A stretch of DNA of 64,000 bases from Shimia sp. (GTDB taxonomy: Bacteria; Pseudomonadota; Alphaproteobacteria; Rhodobacterales; Rhodobacteraceae). The stretch covers positions 62,001-126,000 of the forward strand of contig NZ_JAKVCW010000002.1 of the NCBI RefSeq assembly GCF_022448905.1. Reading direction: 5' to 3'. Position numbers and translations under genes: made by a program. How positions within the stretch are numbered: position 1 is the first letter of the stretch; each line of letters starts with the position of its first letter. Below are positions 34,989 to 59,526 of this stretch, piece by piece. Below the pieces are notes generated by a model, which was not told the DNA's origin, searched no databases, and saw only the letters and a program-made list of their open reading frames with translations.

Positions 34989-36005
34989 ATGGCCACCATT
35001 CTTGAACCCAAACTGATCACTGGCAACGCCAACAAACCGCTTGCCAGCGCCATCGCGCGGCGAATGTCGATGCACCGGGGCAGCAACGTCAATCTGATCG
35101 ACGCCCGTGTAGAGCGCTTCAACGACGCTGAAATCTTTGTCGAAGTCTACGACAACGTGCGCGGCGAAGACATGTTCATCATCCAGTCGACCTCCAACCC
35201 GGCGAACGACAACCTGATGGAATTGTTGATCATGTCCGACGCCCTGCGCCGCTCCTCGGCCAGCCGCATCACCGCTGTGATCCCCTACTTCGGCTACGCC
35301 CGTCAGGACCGCCGCACCAAGGCCCGCACCCCGATCACTGCCAAGCTGGTCGCCAACATGATGGTCGAAGCCGGCATCGAGCGCATCCTGACCATGGATC
35401 TGCACGCCGCACAAATCCAAGGCTTCTTCGACATTCCGGTCGACAACCTCTACGCCTCGCCTGTGTTTGCGCTCGACATCAAAGCGCAGTTCAAAGAGAA
35501 CCTGTCTGACGTGATGATCATCTCTCCGGACGTGGGCGGCGTGGCCCGCGCGCGCGAGCTGGCAAAACGCATCAACGCGCCGCTGGCCATCGTGGACAAA
35601 CGCCGCGAGAAGCCGGGCGAGATTGCTGAGATGACCGTGATCGGCGACGTCAAAGGCAAAAAATGTATCATCGTGGACGACATCTGCGACACCGCCGGCA
35701 CGCTTTGTAAAGCCGCCGAAGTTCTGATCGAGCACGGCGCCACCGAGGTGCACAGCTACATCTCCCACGGCGTTCTGTCCGGCCCGGCGATTGAGCGCAT
35801 CACCAACTCAGTGATGAAATCGCTGGTCATCACCGACAGCATCGAGCCCACTGAGGCCGTCAAAGGCGCCGCCAACATCCGCATCGTGCCCACCGCCCCG
35901 ATGTTTGCCCAGGCAATCCTCAACACCGCTAACGGCACGTCCGTGAGCTCCTTGTTTGAAACCGAGACGCTGGAACCTGCCTACGAAGGCCTGTTCAAAG
36001 CCTGA
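34989..36005 (+). CDS. prs: Ribose-phosphate pyrophosphokinase
   Basis: A 338-residue PRPP synthetase, which makes phosphoribosyl pyrophosphate for nucleotides, histidine and tryptophan. Signatures are [21 protein letters not shown], the metal-binding [15 protein letters not shown], and the PRPP loop [13 protein letters not shown]. The last 75 bases and the terminator are present a second time, diverged, at 39076-39209. Confidence 0.97.
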
Positions 36006-36065
36006 TCTGAGCGGATCAATTGAGAGATTTGGAAAGCCCCGACGGTTGCGTCGGGGCTTTTTTGT
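35931..36065 (+). repeat. Direct repeat, copy A: 3' end of prs plus terminator
   Basis: This 135-base stretch holds the last 25 codons of prs and its terminator. It recurs at 39076-39209 in the same orientation with about 15 differences, including an unbroken 43-base identical block across the stop codon. The two copies bracket a 3-kb redox gene module. Confidence 0.85.
36033..36065 (+). terminator. Terminator of prs
   Basis: A perfect 11-bp stem (AAAGCCCCGAC / GTCGGGGCTTT) with a 6-base loop, followed by T residues. Confidence 0.92.
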
Positions 36066-36167: not shown

Positions 36168-36941
36168 TCAATAACTTGCCATTAGCTGACGCAGCGAGGT
36201 GACGTTCATACGTTTGTAGGCTTTTTTGCGGTGGGTGATAATGGTCGTTTCCGCCACGCCAAGCAGCTCCGCGGACTCTTTTGCCGTCCGGCCTTTGATC
36301 GCCATCGCAGCAACCTCGCGCTCACGCGGGGTGAGATCTGGATAGGTGAGCGCCAGCCGGGCCTGAATATCATTCTCCATCCAAACACCATCTCTCAAAG
36401 AAAAGGCGACATGCCGTTCCGTCAAAGCCAACAACAGCCGCAGCAGCGCCTGAATTTTTCCGCTGTCCGGATTGTCGAATGGGCCGCTTTCTTCACTTGA
36501 ATACATGCTGACAGAGAGCCCATAGTCCGCTGTACGCCGGACAATGGACACGCGCTCTGAAATTCCCGGCAGATCATAACAATCCCGCCGGTAAGTGAAC
36601 GAGAAGATATCTTTGGCGGTTTGCACCGTCAAAAAGTCGCCGTGTCCGTGAGAACCGCAAAGGAGTTGCGTATTTCCGTCTTCTTGGACGTGGCGCCGAT
36701 ACCCTTTTGCGGCTTGGGTTGCGCGCCGCTGCCCCAAACGACAAGCTGTGCCAATCAGAAGCGGCGCATCCCGGTCTCCTTGACAAAACAGCGACACAAA
36801 ATCCGCGCCACAAACCTCGCTCGCAACCCCCATGACCGCCTGAGTGAAGCTCTCAGACCCAACGGCCTGAGACAGCGGAATGACCTGATCGACACCCAAA
36901 CTCAGTTCGGCAAAGGGTGGCTGCAGCTTTTGCTGTTTCAA
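36168..36941 (-). CDS. LuxR-type transcriptional regulator
   Basis: A 257-residue regulator with a GAF-like N-terminal half and a C-terminal GerE helix-turn-helix (LTPREREVAAMAIKGRTAKESAELLGVAETTIITHRKKAYKRM in the last 60 residues). The start is a TTG at 36941 with GGA ahead; a later ATG is possible. It lies 19 bases behind the ferredoxin-NADP reductase gene on the same strand. A perfect dyad between that gene and the divergent nitroreductase gene (37831-37846) may be its operator. No LuxI is present, and the ligand is unknown. Confidence 0.83.
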   Translation of the reverse strand: MKQQKLQPPFAELSLGVDQVIPLSQAVGSESFTQAVMGVASEVCGADFVSLFCQGDRDAPLLIGTACRLGQRRATQAAKGYRRHVQEDGNTQLLCGSHGHGDFLTVQTAKDIFSFTYRRDCYDLPGISERVSIVRRTADYGLSVSMYSSEESGPFDNPDSGKIQALLRLLLALTERHVAFSLRDGVWMENDIQARLALTYPDLTPREREVAAMAIKGRTAKESAELLGVAETTIITHRKKAYKRMNVTSLRQLMASY

Positions 36942-36960
36942 TCGAATTCCATCCCTTGTT

Positions 36961-37770
36961 TTACCCGGCGAATGCCTTTTCGATCACAAACTGTCCCGGC
37001 TTGGAGTTTGATCCTTCAAGAAACCCATGCTCTTCGCAAAGGCCTTTGAGAGTGTCCAGCATCGCCATCGACCCACAGATCATCACCCGATCGGTTTCCG
37101 GCGTCAAATCCCCGCCGCTCATCTGTGCAAGCCGACCGTCTTTGATCCAGTCATCGATACGGCCCGTATTTTTGTAGATCTCCCGGGTTGCCGACGGGTG
37201 ATGATACAGCATCCCATCGGCCAGATCGCCCAGATAGTCATGGCTGTGAACCGACTGCACCAAGTCAATGCCGTATTGCAACTCTGCCACGTTTCGGCAG
37301 CTATGCAGCAGGTGGACCTGGTCAAATTTTTCATACACCTCGGGATCTCGAATGACGCTCGCAAACGGCGCGATTCCCGTCCCGGTGGACAGCAAAAACA
37401 GTCGCTTTCCCGGCAGCAACCCATCAAACACAAGCGTGCCAACTGGTTTGGGACGGATCAAAATTTGATCGCCAATTTGAATGTTCTGCAGCTTAGACGT
37501 CAGAGGGCCATCAGGCACTTTGATTGAATAGAATTCCAGATGCTCCTCCCAGTTGGCTGAGGCAATGGAATAGGCGCGCACCAGTGGTTTGCCATCAATC
37601 ATCAAACCAATCATGGCAAATTCACCGGAGCGAAACCGAAACCCCGCCGGGCGCTGTGTTGTGAAGGAAAATAGGCGATCCGTGTAATGTTGCACCGACA
37701 GGACATCCAATGTGACAAAGCCCTTTGGCACCTCCGTTGCTAACCTTGCTCCTCCAACGATCTGATCCAT
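36961..37770 (-). CDS. fpr: Ferredoxin--NADP reductase
   Basis: A 269-residue FAD enzyme of the bacterial Fpr type. It contains the FAD site RAYSIAS, the SGEFAMIGL stretch, the NADP site STGTGIAPFASVIRDPE, and the C-terminal FVIEKAFAG expected for this subclass. It passes electrons between NADPH and ferredoxin or flavodoxin. Divergent from it are a flavin nitroreductase and a ferredoxin gene, so it is the likely electron source for that pair. GGAG precedes the ATG at 37770. Confidence 0.93.
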   Translation of the reverse strand: MDQIVGGARLATEVPKGFVTLDVLSVQHYTDRLFSFTTQRPAGFRFRSGEFAMIGLMIDGKPLVRAYSIASANWEEHLEFYSIKVPDGPLTSKLQNIQIGDQILIRPKPVGTLVFDGLLPGKRLFLLSTGTGIAPFASVIRDPEVYEKFDQVHLLHSCRNVAELQYGIDLVQSVHSHDYLGDLADGMLYHHPSATREIYKNTGRIDDWIKDGRLAQMSGGDLTPETDRVMICGSMAMLDTLKGLCEEHGFLEGSNSKPGQFVIEKAFAG

Positions 37771-37830
37771 TTTGCGCTCCGTTACTATTGAGTTTGGTGG
37801 AACGAACACTTTTTGGATCAGAGTCAGCAA

Positions 37831-37846
37831 TCCTCATCAATGAGGA
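37831..37846. promoter_or_regulatory. Perfect dyad in the fpr-nitroreductase divergent promoter
   Basis: TCCTCAT-CA-ATGAGGA, 7-bp arms around a 2-base centre, near the middle of the 128-base space between two divergent gene pairs. It is the natural candidate operator for the LuxR-type regulator of this module. Confidence 0.5.
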
Positions 37847-37898
37847 ATGAAGTGACCGAAGTACCGGCGGTATTCTATCCCCAGCAAAGGAGACGCCA

Positions 37899-38591
37899 AT
37901 GTTCGCACGCGATCACATAGAATACCAACCTGCCGACCTGCCAGACCGGATGGATTACTCAGCCGAGAAAAGCCTCAAAGAGGCAAAGGCCTTTTATGAC
38001 AGAATGAAACGACGTCACACGGTGCGTGATTACTCCGACACCCCGGTATCCCGAGAAGTGATCGAGGAATGCATCCGTACCGCAGGCACGGCGCCATCGG
38101 GGGCGAACCACCAGCCGTGGCATTTTGTGGCGATTTCCGATCCTGCGTTTAAGAAACGTGTCCGCGAAGCCGCCGAGGAAGAAGAGCGCCGGTTTTATGA
38201 GGGGGGCGCCGGCGACGAATGGCTCAAAGCGCTCGAACCGATTGGCACCAATGATCACAAACCCCATCTGGAGGAGGCGCCGTGGCTCATCGTGGTGTTT
38301 GCGCAGCGCTGGGGCCATTTTGACGATGGCACCCGTTTCAAGAACTACTATGTCCCTGAAAGCACCGGAATTTCCTGTGGATTCTTGCTGGCGGCGTTGC
38401 ACCATGCAGGCTTGGTCACCCTGACTCACACCCCAAACCCCATGCGGTTTTTAAACAAGATGTTGGGGCGGCCAGAGAGCGAAAAACCGATTATGATTGT
38501 GGCTGTGGGACATGCGGCAAAGGACGCAAAGGTGCCCGCCGTCGCCAAGATGAAAAAGCCGCTCGACGAAATCCTGACCGTCGCGGACTAA
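37899..38591 (+). CDS. Nitroreductase-family flavoprotein resembling iodotyrosine deiodinase
   Basis: A 230-residue FMN protein with a strong AAAGGAG ribosome site. The FMN-phosphate run [22 protein letters not shown] (38-59) and [14 protein letters not shown] (63-76) fit the deiodinase/BluB side of the superfamily. The lid region EEEERRFY...GTNDHKPHL places Glu95/Glu96, Tyr100 (or Phe99) and Lys121 where iodotyrosine deiodinase carries its substrate-clamping Glu-Tyr-Lys triad; an ACGFLLAAL-like stretch ([16 protein letters not shown]) follows. The alignment is from memory and by eye. The ferredoxin gene follows by 64 bases; fpr is divergent. Confidence 0.85.
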
Positions 38592-38617
38592 CCCACCCCA
38601 CTTTAAAAACCACAAAA

Positions 38618-38639
38618 CGGCGAGCCATTGGGCTCGCCG
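38618..38639. promoter_or_regulatory. Hairpin directly before the ferredoxin ribosome site
   Basis: A perfect 9-bp stem (CGGCGAGCC / GGCTCGCCG) with a 4-base loop ends three bases before the GGAG that serves the ferredoxin gene. There is no T run. It may be a weak terminator, an RNA-processing stem, or a control on ferredoxin translation. Confidence 0.5.
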
Positions 38640-38655
38640 AATGGAGAAATGTGTC

Positions 38656-39036
38656 TTGGCCTATGTTGTCACCGAAAACTGTATCGCATGTAAGTACACG
38701 GACTGCGTGGACGTCTGCCCGGTAGACTGTTTTCACGAGGGTGACACCATGCTGGTCATCCACCCCGACCACTGCATTGACTGCGGTGTGTGCGAACCTG
38801 AATGCCCGGCAGGCGCAATCCAACCCGACACCGAACCTGACAGTCAAAAATGGGTTGATTTCAACCGAGGCCTGGCCAACCAATGGCCGGTCATTACGGA
38901 CCGCAAAGATCCCTTGCCCCATGCAGAGGAGATGGATGGCTTGCCAGGAAAACTCACACATCTTAAGTCCTCCGAGCCTCTAAGGGCCTGGGTAAAAACC
39001 AACGCGCCAACCCTTTGGCTTGAGGCTGCGGAGTAA
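38656..39036 (+). CDS. fdxA: 7Fe ferredoxin (FdxA type)
   Basis: A ferredoxin of about 126 residues with one [3Fe-4S] and one [4Fe-4S] cluster: [18 protein letters not shown] and [16 protein letters not shown]. FdxA proteins begin M-(A/T)-YVVT, which fits a TTG at 38656 with GGAG at 38643; an ATG at 38641 in the same frame would add five residues. The extension after the clusters is normal for the family. Its place behind the nitroreductase gene, with fpr divergent, suggests the chain NADPH - Fpr - ferredoxin - flavoprotein. Confidence 0.9.
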
Positions 39037-39075
39037 ACCCGTTGTGGGTATTTGGGGCACGGCACCACTTGCGCC

Positions 39076-39209
39076 AACGGCAGCTCTGTGAGCGCGCTGT
39101 TTGAAACAGAGACGCTGAAACCTGCCTACGAAGGCCTGTTCAAAGCCTGATCTGAGCGGATTAGTTGAGAGATTTAGAAAGCCCCGGCGGAGACGTCGGG
39201 GCTTTTTCA
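39076..39209 (+). pseudogene. Remnant of a second prs 3' end, with terminator (direct repeat copy B)
   Basis: About 75 bases encode NGSSVSALFETETLKPAYEG plus four more residues and a stop, matching the C-terminus of the intact prs. Downstream sequence and terminator (39178-39207) match as well. Differences in the coding part are silent or conservative, as if the copy had diverged while part of a working gene. There is no start or upstream prs sequence: the match fades before 39073. It ends the 3-kb module that begins behind prs. Confidence 0.82.
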
Positions 39210-39339: not shown

Positions 39340-40185
39340 CTAAGGCCTCAGCGGCATAACCGTTTCAAAGTCATAGTACTCCATTGGGCGCTCATACGGT
39401 TCCTCTCGAAGGAAATCCGTTATCTCTAGAAGTCCTGTGATGCCTTGACTTTTCATCTCATGGAAAAGTTCTCGCCCTATTATTGGGAGGTCTTGTTTTT
39501 TATTGATCACGAAAATCGAGTACTGCTTGGCGCAGTCAACTATGGATGGAGAGTTTTTAAAAGCAGTCCAGAGTTTTGTACTTAGGATGCCATATCTATC
39601 TTGAGGTATTCTTTCTAATTTTTCTGGCAAAGGCCCCTCATAGCTAAATGTATTGCGCACATAGGCCATAAAGTACTTCTTTCCAAGGGGCTTTTGACTT
39701 TCCGCAGATACGAAGCTCACTGGAGCAAAATCGCACACACTAGGCGCAAACTTGCAAATTAAATCGCGTACCTTCTCGGAGACGGTCAAGTACTTGAAAA
39801 CCATAACATCTGGAAGTAATTCAGCCTCTTTTTCGAGTATCGAATAATCCGGATAAAACTCACTCATGAACATTGGATTCATTGTGACCTCGCCTCGAAT
39901 CCAATTCCCGGACTTGTCTTCAGTTGGGAGTGGCCGCCAATGAACGCCTGCACGTTCGTCTATCACACGCGCCTCTTTTGTGGGCGCAAATCGTAGACTG
40001 CGAAAATCCCCGACGACGGAGCGCTCAAAGCGACGAACTAACCCGCTGGAAAGAAAGAGTGCATAAAACGGCGCCTCTGTCCGGATCTCCGGCTCCACCA
40101 AATCTGCTGCGGATTTGATCAGAGTGTTTGTGTTTTCTGCCATGTCTCTTGCTCGTTCGATGAAGGTCTTATGCACCGCACTCAT
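39340..40185 (-). CDS. Orphan protein resembling Imm11/DUF1629 immunity proteins
   Basis: A 281-residue soluble protein in the most AT-rich stretch of the window. The middle segment TVSEKVRDLICKFAPSVCDFAPVSFV and the later IFVINKK...GRELFHEMKSQGITGLLEITDF follow the two conserved parts of the Imm11/DUF1629 fold. The ATG at 40185 follows AAAGGGA; an alternative ATG at 40143 is possible. No polymorphic toxin is adjacent. Transfer from another genome is likely, given its composition and its place next to the prs remnant. Confidence 0.55.
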   Translation of the reverse strand: MSAVHKTFIERARDMAENTNTLIKSAADLVEPEIRTEAPFYALFLSSGLVRRFERSVVGDFRSLRFAPTKEARVIDERAGVHWRPLPTEDKSGNWIRGEVTMNPMFMSEFYPDYSILEKEAELLPDVMVFKYLTVSEKVRDLICKFAPSVCDFAPVSFVSAESQKPLGKKYFMAYVRNTFSYEGPLPEKLERIPQDRYGILSTKLWTAFKNSPSIVDCAKQYSIFVINKKQDLPIIGRELFHEMKSQGITGLLEITDFLREEPYERPMEYYDFETVMPLRP

Positions 40186-58542: not shown

Positions 58543-59526
58543 TCAGAACGCTTTAAGTTCCTCGGCAAGCGCTTCAATGTCAACAGGCACGGGTTGGCGT
58601 CGCGCGGCCAGCACAGCTTCGGCACGCCGTTGCCCCGCCTCAGACATCTCGCCAATCGCTGCTGCGACCGCCTGACGATCCGCCAAGGTGCCGTTGCAAT
58701 GCAGAACCGCGTCACAGCCGGCGGCAATTGCGGATGCAGCACGTTCATCTACGGTGCCACTCAACGCCTGCATATCGATGTCATCGGTCATGATCAGCCC
58801 GTCAAAGCCGATCTCCTCGCGCATAAACTGCATCATCTTTGGTGAAGTTGTCGCTGGCGCGTCATCCATGTCTTCAAACACAATATGCGCCGTCATGCCC
58901 ATCGGCAGGTCATTGAGCGATTTGAAAGGCGCAAAGTCTCCCGCCAACTCTTCTTTTGGCACGGACACGCGTGGCAGGTCCTTATGGCTGTCCACCACGG
59001 CCAGCCCATGCCCCGGCATATGTTTGATCACGGGGTAAACACCGCCATCCCAAAGCCCTTCGGACACTGCGCGCGCGATCTCGATGATCTGTTGGGGGTC
59101 TTCGCCGTAACAACGGTTACGCAAAAACGGATGGGTGTCCGGCCGCGCCACATCCACCATGGGCGCACAATCTGCATCGATGCCAAGCGCCATCAGCTCA
59201 TGCGCAATGATGCGATAGCGCAGATACATCACCCGTGCCGCATTAGGACCAGCCGTCTGCACCTCTTCCAAAGGTGGCAACCACTCGGTTGCCATCGGCG
59301 CTCGAATGCGCTGCACCCGGCCGCCTTCCTGATCAATCAGGATCGGCGCATGGTGATCAACACAGGCCCGCAGCTCATCACAAAGCGCGCGCACTTGATC
59401 TGCATTGTCAATGTTGCGGGCAAACAGGATGAAGCCAAACGGCTGCACATCCCGAAAAAAGACCTTTTCCTCAGCTGTCAGGCGCAATCCATCACAACCA
59501 AAGATCGCAGCACAGAAGCGGCTCAT
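58543..59526 (-). CDS. nagZ: Beta-N-acetylhexosaminidase NagZ
   Basis: A 327-residue GH3 enzyme that removes GlcNAc from GlcNAc-anhydroMurNAc-peptides in peptidoglycan recycling. It contains ILIDQEGGRVQR, the active-site loop KHMPGHG with following His/Asp, and IMTDDIDMQALSG with the nucleophile Asp. The start overlaps the SPOR gene stop by ATGA. The next recycling enzyme, AnmK, is encoded at 17.5 kb. Confidence 0.96.
   Translation of the reverse strand: MSRFCAAIFGCDGLRLTAEEKVFFRDVQPFGFILFARNIDNADQVRALCDELRACVDHHAPILIDQEGGRVQRIRAPMATEWLPPLEEVQTAGPNAARVMYLRYRIIAHELMALGIDADCAPMVDVARPDTHPFLRNRCYGEDPQQIIEIARAVSEGLWDGGVYPVIKHMPGHGLAVVDSHKDLPRVSVPKEELAGDFAPFKSLNDLPMGMTAHIVFEDMDDAPATTSPKMMQFMREEIGFDGLIMTDDIDMQALSGTVDERAASAIAAGCDAVLHCNGTLADRQAVAAAIGEMSEAGQRRAEAVLAARRQPVPVDIEALAEELKAF

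Follow-up and report, generated by a model that had tools for sequence, protein, structure and literature searches.

Which reductant serves a bacterial iodotyrosine deiodinase (IYD), and what does such an enzyme do in a bacterium? To our knowledge, both the cellular reductant of IYD and its bacterial role are open. The two questions are raised together by a locus of Shimia sp. that lies at 36168-39036 of the window analysed here (the whole stretch of 64,000 nucleotides from contig NZ_JAKVCW010000002.1), in which luxR and fpr on the minus strand diverge from a nitroreductase gene (iyd) and fdxA on the plus strand. The reading we propose, and which we hold to be fairly probable, is that of a LuxR-switched mobile regulon for the reductive dehalogenation of ortho-halophenolic compounds such as halotyrosines.

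An earlier note, drawn from the letters of this DNA, had described the divergent pairs fpr-luxR and nitroreductase-fdxA as a possible regulated dehalogenation system. A check of the open reading frames (ORFs) finds all four genes where the note had put them, and Pfam and NCBIfam assign them to the families it had named: GerE/LuxR, FAD/NAD-binding ferredoxin reductase, nitroreductase, and FdxA with DUF3470. Taken as a whole, that earlier reading is partly supported by the observations reported below.

An enzyme of the iodotyrosine deiodinase family

Judged by its sequence, the nitroreductase is a member of the IYD family, which a 2026 review describes from mammals to bacteria (PMC13078365). It has the nitroreductase fold with the FMN-site residues (PF00881, E 3e-24). 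Against PDB sequences it scores 233 bits with the IYD of H. hydrossis, 163 with human IYD and 82 with the Thermotoga-type IYD 6pz0, the best non-IYD nitroreductase reaching 48; both these bit scores and a 32-row tree place it closer to the characterised IYDs than to other nitroreductase subgroups. In this tree, the protein groups with the H. hydrossis and human IYDs, in line with the earlier note, and apart from NTR2, a second nitroreductase of related loci, with a support of 100; NTR2 is the only non-IYD group among the rows, so that the tree is not one of the full superfamily. The IYD structures fill Foldseek ranks 1-25 for the predicted model of the enzyme, the match to the H. hydrossis IYD being at 49% identity.

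The residues singled out in the earlier note (E93-E96, F99, Y100 and K121) are all present. In the alignment, the Glu-Tyr-Lys lid of human IYD (whose residues we take to be numbered E157, Y161 and K182) has its counterparts in Glu96, Tyr100 and Lys121 at the same spacings, including the Tyr-Lys spacing of 21, and E93, E95, E96, F99, Y100 and K121 are invariant in 20/20 aligned alphaproteobacterial and related sequences.

The H. hydrossis IYD (PDB 5ko7/5ko8) shares with the window enzyme its fold, FMN-site signature, Glu-Tyr-Lys lid and spacing; the window enzyme differs in that a LuxR-linked unit encodes it together with a ferredoxin reductase and a ferredoxin of its own. Among the open-access papers on IYD with ferredoxin, in bacteria or in H. 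hydrossis, and on reductive dehalogenases with LuxR, we recognised none on this arrangement. IYDs themselves are common, being found in 91 of 295 genomes of the family and 14 of 25 in the genus.

A conserved palindrome and a LuxR-type regulator

A perfect palindrome, with the core TCCTCATNNATGAGGA at 37831-37846, separates fpr from the nitroreductase gene, and it is the single occurrence of the pattern TCCTCANNNNTGAGGA in the window genome. With small variations, the palindrome CAATCCTCATYRATGAGGAATG is present in the divergent promoter of all eight LuxR units that stand beside IYD or NTR2. Compared pairwise among six non-redundant units, the core of 16 bp shows 89% identity, against 28% and 30% in the flanks, and among 247 loci compared the 20 that match TCCTCANNNNTGAGGA all cover these 8 unit sites. 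The window holds a single exact copy of the 14-base consensus, and a further site at 59327 departs from it at two positions (0.16 being expected by chance at <=2 mismatches). The distance from site to start codon, measured in the units other than L056 and L159, is 50-53 bp before IYD or NTR2 in five of them and 69 bp in L160. A promoter scan at the palindrome returned no convincing promoter. The length of the palindrome is similar to that of a lux box, and the element is probably the operator to which the adjacent LuxR-type protein would bind. The earlier note had spoken of a regulated unit, a claim that now finds a probable site of action in the divergent promoter.

The regulator possesses a GerE DNA-binding domain (PF00196, E 8e-13), and no autoinducer-binding domain was found, Pfam giving no match outside GerE at E 0.001; on this ground we file it as a LuxR-type protein and not as an N-acyl-homoserine lactone receptor. 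It resembles the LuxR-type small-molecule receptors in its GerE domain and in its predicted fold, for which SdiA, QscR, RhlR, TraR and VqsR take the structure-match ranks 1-35, and differs from them by the lack of a Pfam autoinducer-binding match; the model is of moderate confidence and the TM-scores are low (0.32-0.45, full chains, by query length). Homologues of this regulator are rare. At E<=1e-25 they were found in 4 of 394 family genomes; among 385 class genomes, a search at 1e-18 gave three, of which one is a partial match of 36%.

The same palindrome precedes a B12 reductive dehalogenase

The pattern was searched in 21 genomes, 8 with a homologue of LuxR and 13 without a known one (one of these, G006, was searched whole for LuxR). 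The eight LuxR-bearing genomes hold 11 sites: the 8 unit promoters, one site inside an ORF of G020, and two sites in the genome G100, which belongs to another genus, one before an rdhA gene and the other at C7:543. G100 has no IYD match at E<=1e-20, and its LuxR, 56% identical to that of the window, is an orphan without Fpr, NTR2 or IYD alongside. The recognition helices of the two regulators are 94% identical, that of the distant homologue L188 being 44% identical to the window one. The G100 palindrome matches all 14 consensus bases and is intergenic, 126 bp upstream of rdhA and 143 bp from a PreT-like gene.

The 1070-aa product of this rdhA matches full length the catabolic reductive dehalogenase of PDB 6zxu/4ras, presumably NpRdhA (E about 1e-162); it carries the double-cluster Fe-S motif and a fused C-terminal part that is phthalate-dioxygenase-reductase-like, with a 2Fe-2S domain. 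Its identity is 73% with a gene from a plasmid of Ruegeria sp. TM1040, for which the annotation reads reductive dehalogenase, and 50% with a gene on the Comamonas sp. 7D-2 plasmid pBHB. Enzymes of this type are described as drawing on NADPH via their fused reductase and as dehalogenating brominated and iodinated phenols, including 3-bromo-4-hydroxyphenylacetate, and chlorinated phenols as inhibiting them (PMC10463259); a Roseobacter enzyme is described as debrominating 2,6-dibromophenol (PMC13101508). The catabolic reductive dehalogenases (NpRdhA, BhbA, JtRdhA) would thus have in common with the system proposed here the reductive loss of ortho-halogens from phenols with electrons from NADPH, whereas they are B12 and Fe-S enzymes unrelated to the window FMN enzyme.

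Since the same palindrome stands before the B12 enzyme of G100, the regulator is independently linked to dehalogenation. Moreover, Fpr and FdxA are present with an IYD that has no reductase of its own, and neither is found beside the LuxR of G100, whose enzyme is self-sufficient, as would be expected of a dehalogenation regulon. How the genes are distributed in this way forms our chief new argument in favour of the idea of the earlier note, whose dehalogenation system gains here an independent support, its substrate and its NADPH-Fpr-FdxA-flavoprotein chain being what we infer.

Two Roseibium genomes (L251, L252, position 1501) carry a related palindrome, TCCTCATTTTTGAGGA, with an off-consensus centre; it is flanked by a different LuxR-type gene (37% in the helix-turn-helix) and, by eye, an amidase-like ORF.

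A ferredoxin reductase and a ferredoxin as probable electron partners

The window Fpr has FAD- and NAD-binding domains and matches solved bacterial ferredoxin-NADP+ reductases (FPRs) over its full length (PDB 2bgi, E 3e-94; 1a8p, E 2e-75), and its score with the NCBIfam Fpr equivalog (PRK10926) is 138 bits, below the cutoff of 390. FdxA scores 158 bits with NCBIfam FdxA_Protbact, above the cutoff of 135, and matches the Azotobacter vinelandii-type ferredoxin I (FdI) chains at E 8e-43, with its cysteines 14, 17, 22, 26, 45, 48, 51 and 55 aligned with those of FdI. FPR and FdI form a redox pair. The best matches of the window proteins are thus the FPR and 7Fe FdI of Azotobacter and Rhodobacter, from which they differ in being additional copies linked to a putative flavoprotein dehalogenase.

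The genome holds one further close Fpr (55% identical) and one further FdxA (67% identical), both on other contigs, which supports the earlier claim that the enzyme has partners of its own. In a tree with 30 other Fprs from family genomes, the unit Fprs form one clade (7/7 rows, SH-aLRT 95). In the FdxA tree, the three same-genus copies and that of L088 stand together and that of L159 elsewhere, with no branch at 95, so that a single origin of the unit FdxA is not established. That Fpr and FdxA are mere housekeeping genes was considered and rejected in view of the extra paralogues and the unit Fpr clade.

A model for the regulon

The model we propose combines these elements in one inducible pathway. 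The LuxR-type protein, probably through an ortho-halophenolic ligand, would act at the palindrome between fpr and iyd, thereby switching on both divergent operons. Electrons would then pass from NADPH to Fpr, from Fpr to the 7Fe ferredoxin FdxA and from FdxA to the FMN of the IYD-type enzyme, whose Glu-Tyr-Lys lid would close over a halogenated tyrosine (iodo-, bromo-, perhaps chlorotyrosine), the halogen being replaced by hydrogen. The dehalogenated product would be able to join the ordinary tyrosine metabolism. The removal of halogen from halotyrosine-like compounds by the window enzyme shares, as a part of the whole, the fair probability that we give to the reading.

Such a substrate is plausible for these bacteria, since halogenated tyrosines are abundant in some sponge skeletons, nine of them being described from the skeleton of one sponge (PMC5334614), and bromophenols occur in the sea (PMC13101508). 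No tyrosine-degradation gene was recognised as recurring near the IYD loci, the neighbours having been viewed by eye without a family search.

Variants of the unit and rival explanations

The gene set is modular. The order LuxR<Fpr< >IYD>FdxA is present in three genomes of the genus (the window genome, G009 and G020); LuxR<Fpr< >NTR2>IYD is found in G317 and L086, the latter from a metagenome bin that is named Blastopirellula and may be misbinned, and the same order plus FdxA in L088. G327 has two loci, LuxR<Fpr< >NTR2>FdxA and LuxR< >IYD. NTR2 is a protein of about 290 aa (PF00881; for example L083:7048-7998, L088:7127-7987 and L159:8047-8910) for which a Geobacter nitroreductase is the closest solved structure (E 4e-17). 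Behind the shared palindrome it goes with IYD, or with Fpr and FdxA; it also precedes IYD without LuxR at two Roseibium/Labrenzia loci and one Hyphomicrobiales locus (L083, L085, L096). It is found in 1 of 385 class genomes, and a search of the window genome at E<=1e-40 did not find it. Downstream of the unit, L088 (9193-13860, minus strand) and L159 (9751-14423, minus strand), which belong to different genera, share a run of genes that look by eye like urocanate hydratase-like, CoA-transferase, oxidoreductase and IclR genes.

Two overlapping surveys, whose counts are not independent (L079 = G020:C77, L087 = G327:C9), place the unit among bacterial IYDs at large. At 43 IYD loci with 1.5-kb flanks, LuxR stands beside 3, FdxA beside 3 and Fpr beside 4; at 80 named loci with flanks of up to 8 kb, LuxR stands beside 4, Fpr beside 3 and FdxA beside 2, and 74 have none of the query genes. 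The four-gene order as the common context of IYD is thus rejected, being rare in both surveys: the genome search that the earlier note had suggested recovers the unit in the genus, and not as a general feature of bacterial IYDs.

Several observations weigh against the model, and a first group of them concerns the electron path. The Fpr and FdxA of G327 accompany NTR2 and not IYD, so that the chain may serve NTR2; FdxA is missing near the G317 unit and on the short contig L086, that is, from the units of two of the seven LuxR/IYD genomes; and most bacterial IYD loci lack both Fpr and FdxA, so that other donors must be able to serve the enzyme. These three facts would suit an IYD-family enzyme that takes its electrons straight from NAD(P)H or from general reductases of the cell, with Fpr and FdxA serving NTR2 or a stress response and standing in the unit for historical reasons. 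We regard this explanation as rather unlikely: NTR2 is absent from the three same-genus units, so IYD is the sole flavoenzyme there, yet both partner genes are retained; in all seven LuxR/IYD genomes an Fpr stands under the palindrome (that of the second LuxR locus in G327), as does FdxA in five; and the palindrome is common to both G327 loci, so that their joint induction is possible. To the same group belongs a report on NpRdhA, in which a ferredoxin chain encoded next to that enzyme could not be reconstituted in vitro (PMC10463259).

A second group concerns G100. Its palindrome lies between the divergent rdhA and PreT-like genes, so that its target is not certain, and its LuxR, encoded on a different contig, has no palindrome alongside. 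Seven out of eight plasmid loci with a full-length rdhA were searched and none has the palindrome at <=2 mismatches, so that rdhA genes do not in general share the pairing seen in G100; the annotated neighbours include MarR-type regulators in three of these seven. On a rival explanation, the palindrome of G100 would be there by coincidence, or serve another regulator or the PreT-like gene, and the regulon would be unrelated to the B12 dehalogenases. The 13 genomes without a known LuxR also hold single matches to the looser pattern, seven in all (including G802 C224). Six of these were viewed: two with the 14 consensus bases and two more lie inside ORFs, and the remaining two, from Roseibium, are intergenic and off consensus. 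The G100 site, on the contrary, is both intergenic and in full agreement with the consensus, and the near identity of the recognition helices also speaks against this rival, which we take to be unlikely.

A third group concerns the enzyme itself. Its model has a pLDDT of 82.7, with lid residues 108-116 below 50, and was built without FMN or substrate. The dehalogenation reading is a predicted one. Could the unit instead detoxify nitroaromatics or quinones, sensed by LuxR, with the IYD-like protein reducing nitro compounds or quinones in the ordinary manner? In favour are the versatility of the superfamily, NTR2 as a nitroreductase without an assigned substrate and a LuxR without an assigned ligand; on the other hand, the E-Y-K lid is complete, the top matches are to IYD alone and the shared palindrome precedes a reductive dehalogenase in G100. 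We find this explanation quite improbable and retain the dehalogenation regulon.

Apparent insertion at the end of prs

The features of the locus are collected in Table 1. The unit is flanked by two copies, 136 bp long, of the prs 3' end with its terminator, as if it had come in by recombination at the end of prs. Both copies are similarly close to the nearest congener (88% and 90%), neither being singled out as the original, and among 24 congeners nothing beyond the gene's own end matched the downstream copy at prs. G009 and G020 carry prs and the unit on different contigs; Ruegeria L092 and L093 have an IYD gene, without LuxR, tail-to-tail with prs. The GC content of the unit is 55.0% against 58.5% for the window, a modest deviation (rank 23 of 244 3-kb windows), and the DNA of the units from the three genomes of the genus shows 83-88% identity. 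The unit is apparently a mobile island. Carriage on known plasmids was rejected, the plasmid records giving one LuxR match at 32% identity and nine IYD matches, all below 60%.

Table 1. Features of the locus and of its flanks (window coordinates)
Feature	Position	Strand	Description
luxR	36168..36941	-	TTG start; LuxR-type regulator, 257 aa; GerE helix-turn-helix at residues 203-254
fpr	36961..37770	-	ATG start; ferredoxin-NADP+ reductase, bacterial FPR type; extra paralogue
Probable LuxR operator CAATCCTCATCAATGAGGAATG	37828..37849	.	core 37831-37846; 60 bp to fpr start, 52 bp to iyd start
iyd	37899..38591	+	FMN nitroreductase-fold protein, iodotyrosine deiodinase family, 230 aa; lid triad E96, Y100, K121
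fdxA	38641..39036	+	7Fe-type ferredoxin with C-terminal extension, 131 aa; extra paralogue
prs 3' end and terminator, upstream copy	35927..36062	+	end of the intact prs gene 34989-36005
prs 3' end and terminator, second copy	39072..39207	+	88% identical; marks the unit as an insertion after prs

Two gene starts may differ from those listed. A longer reading of fpr from a TTG at 37830 is also open, and the FdxA family alignment starts at residue 6, so that a TTG start near 38656 is possible. A strong hairpin (38618-38639) lies between iyd and fdxA, directly before the annotated fdxA ATG. For the ORF after the unit (39340-40185, minus strand, 281 aa), neither Pfam nor NCBIfam gave a match at 0.001, and no counterpart turned up near prs in the congeners. 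Elsewhere, ORFs that resemble by eye parts of IS3-type transposases (L056:4126-4539, L086:387-755) flank two units, in line with mobility.

Implications

A wider version of the model, which we put forward only tentatively, is that one LuxR family senses ortho-halogenated phenols or tyrosines and drives unrelated dehalogenases via one operator: an IYD with its NADPH-Fpr-7Fe ferredoxin chain, a self-sufficient B12 enzyme and, as a third and hitherto undescribed one, NTR2. An FMN dehalogenase and a B12 dehalogenase would then be tied to one sensor, and the site pattern offers a means to find further dehalogenase genes.

In conclusion, the unit brings together enzyme, ferredoxin, reductase, regulator and operator as a compact, inducible candidate system in a culturable marine lineage. 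Could it be a regulon for the reductive dehalogenation of halotyrosines and related phenols? If so, bacterial IYD would gain both a physiological reductant and a physiological role.

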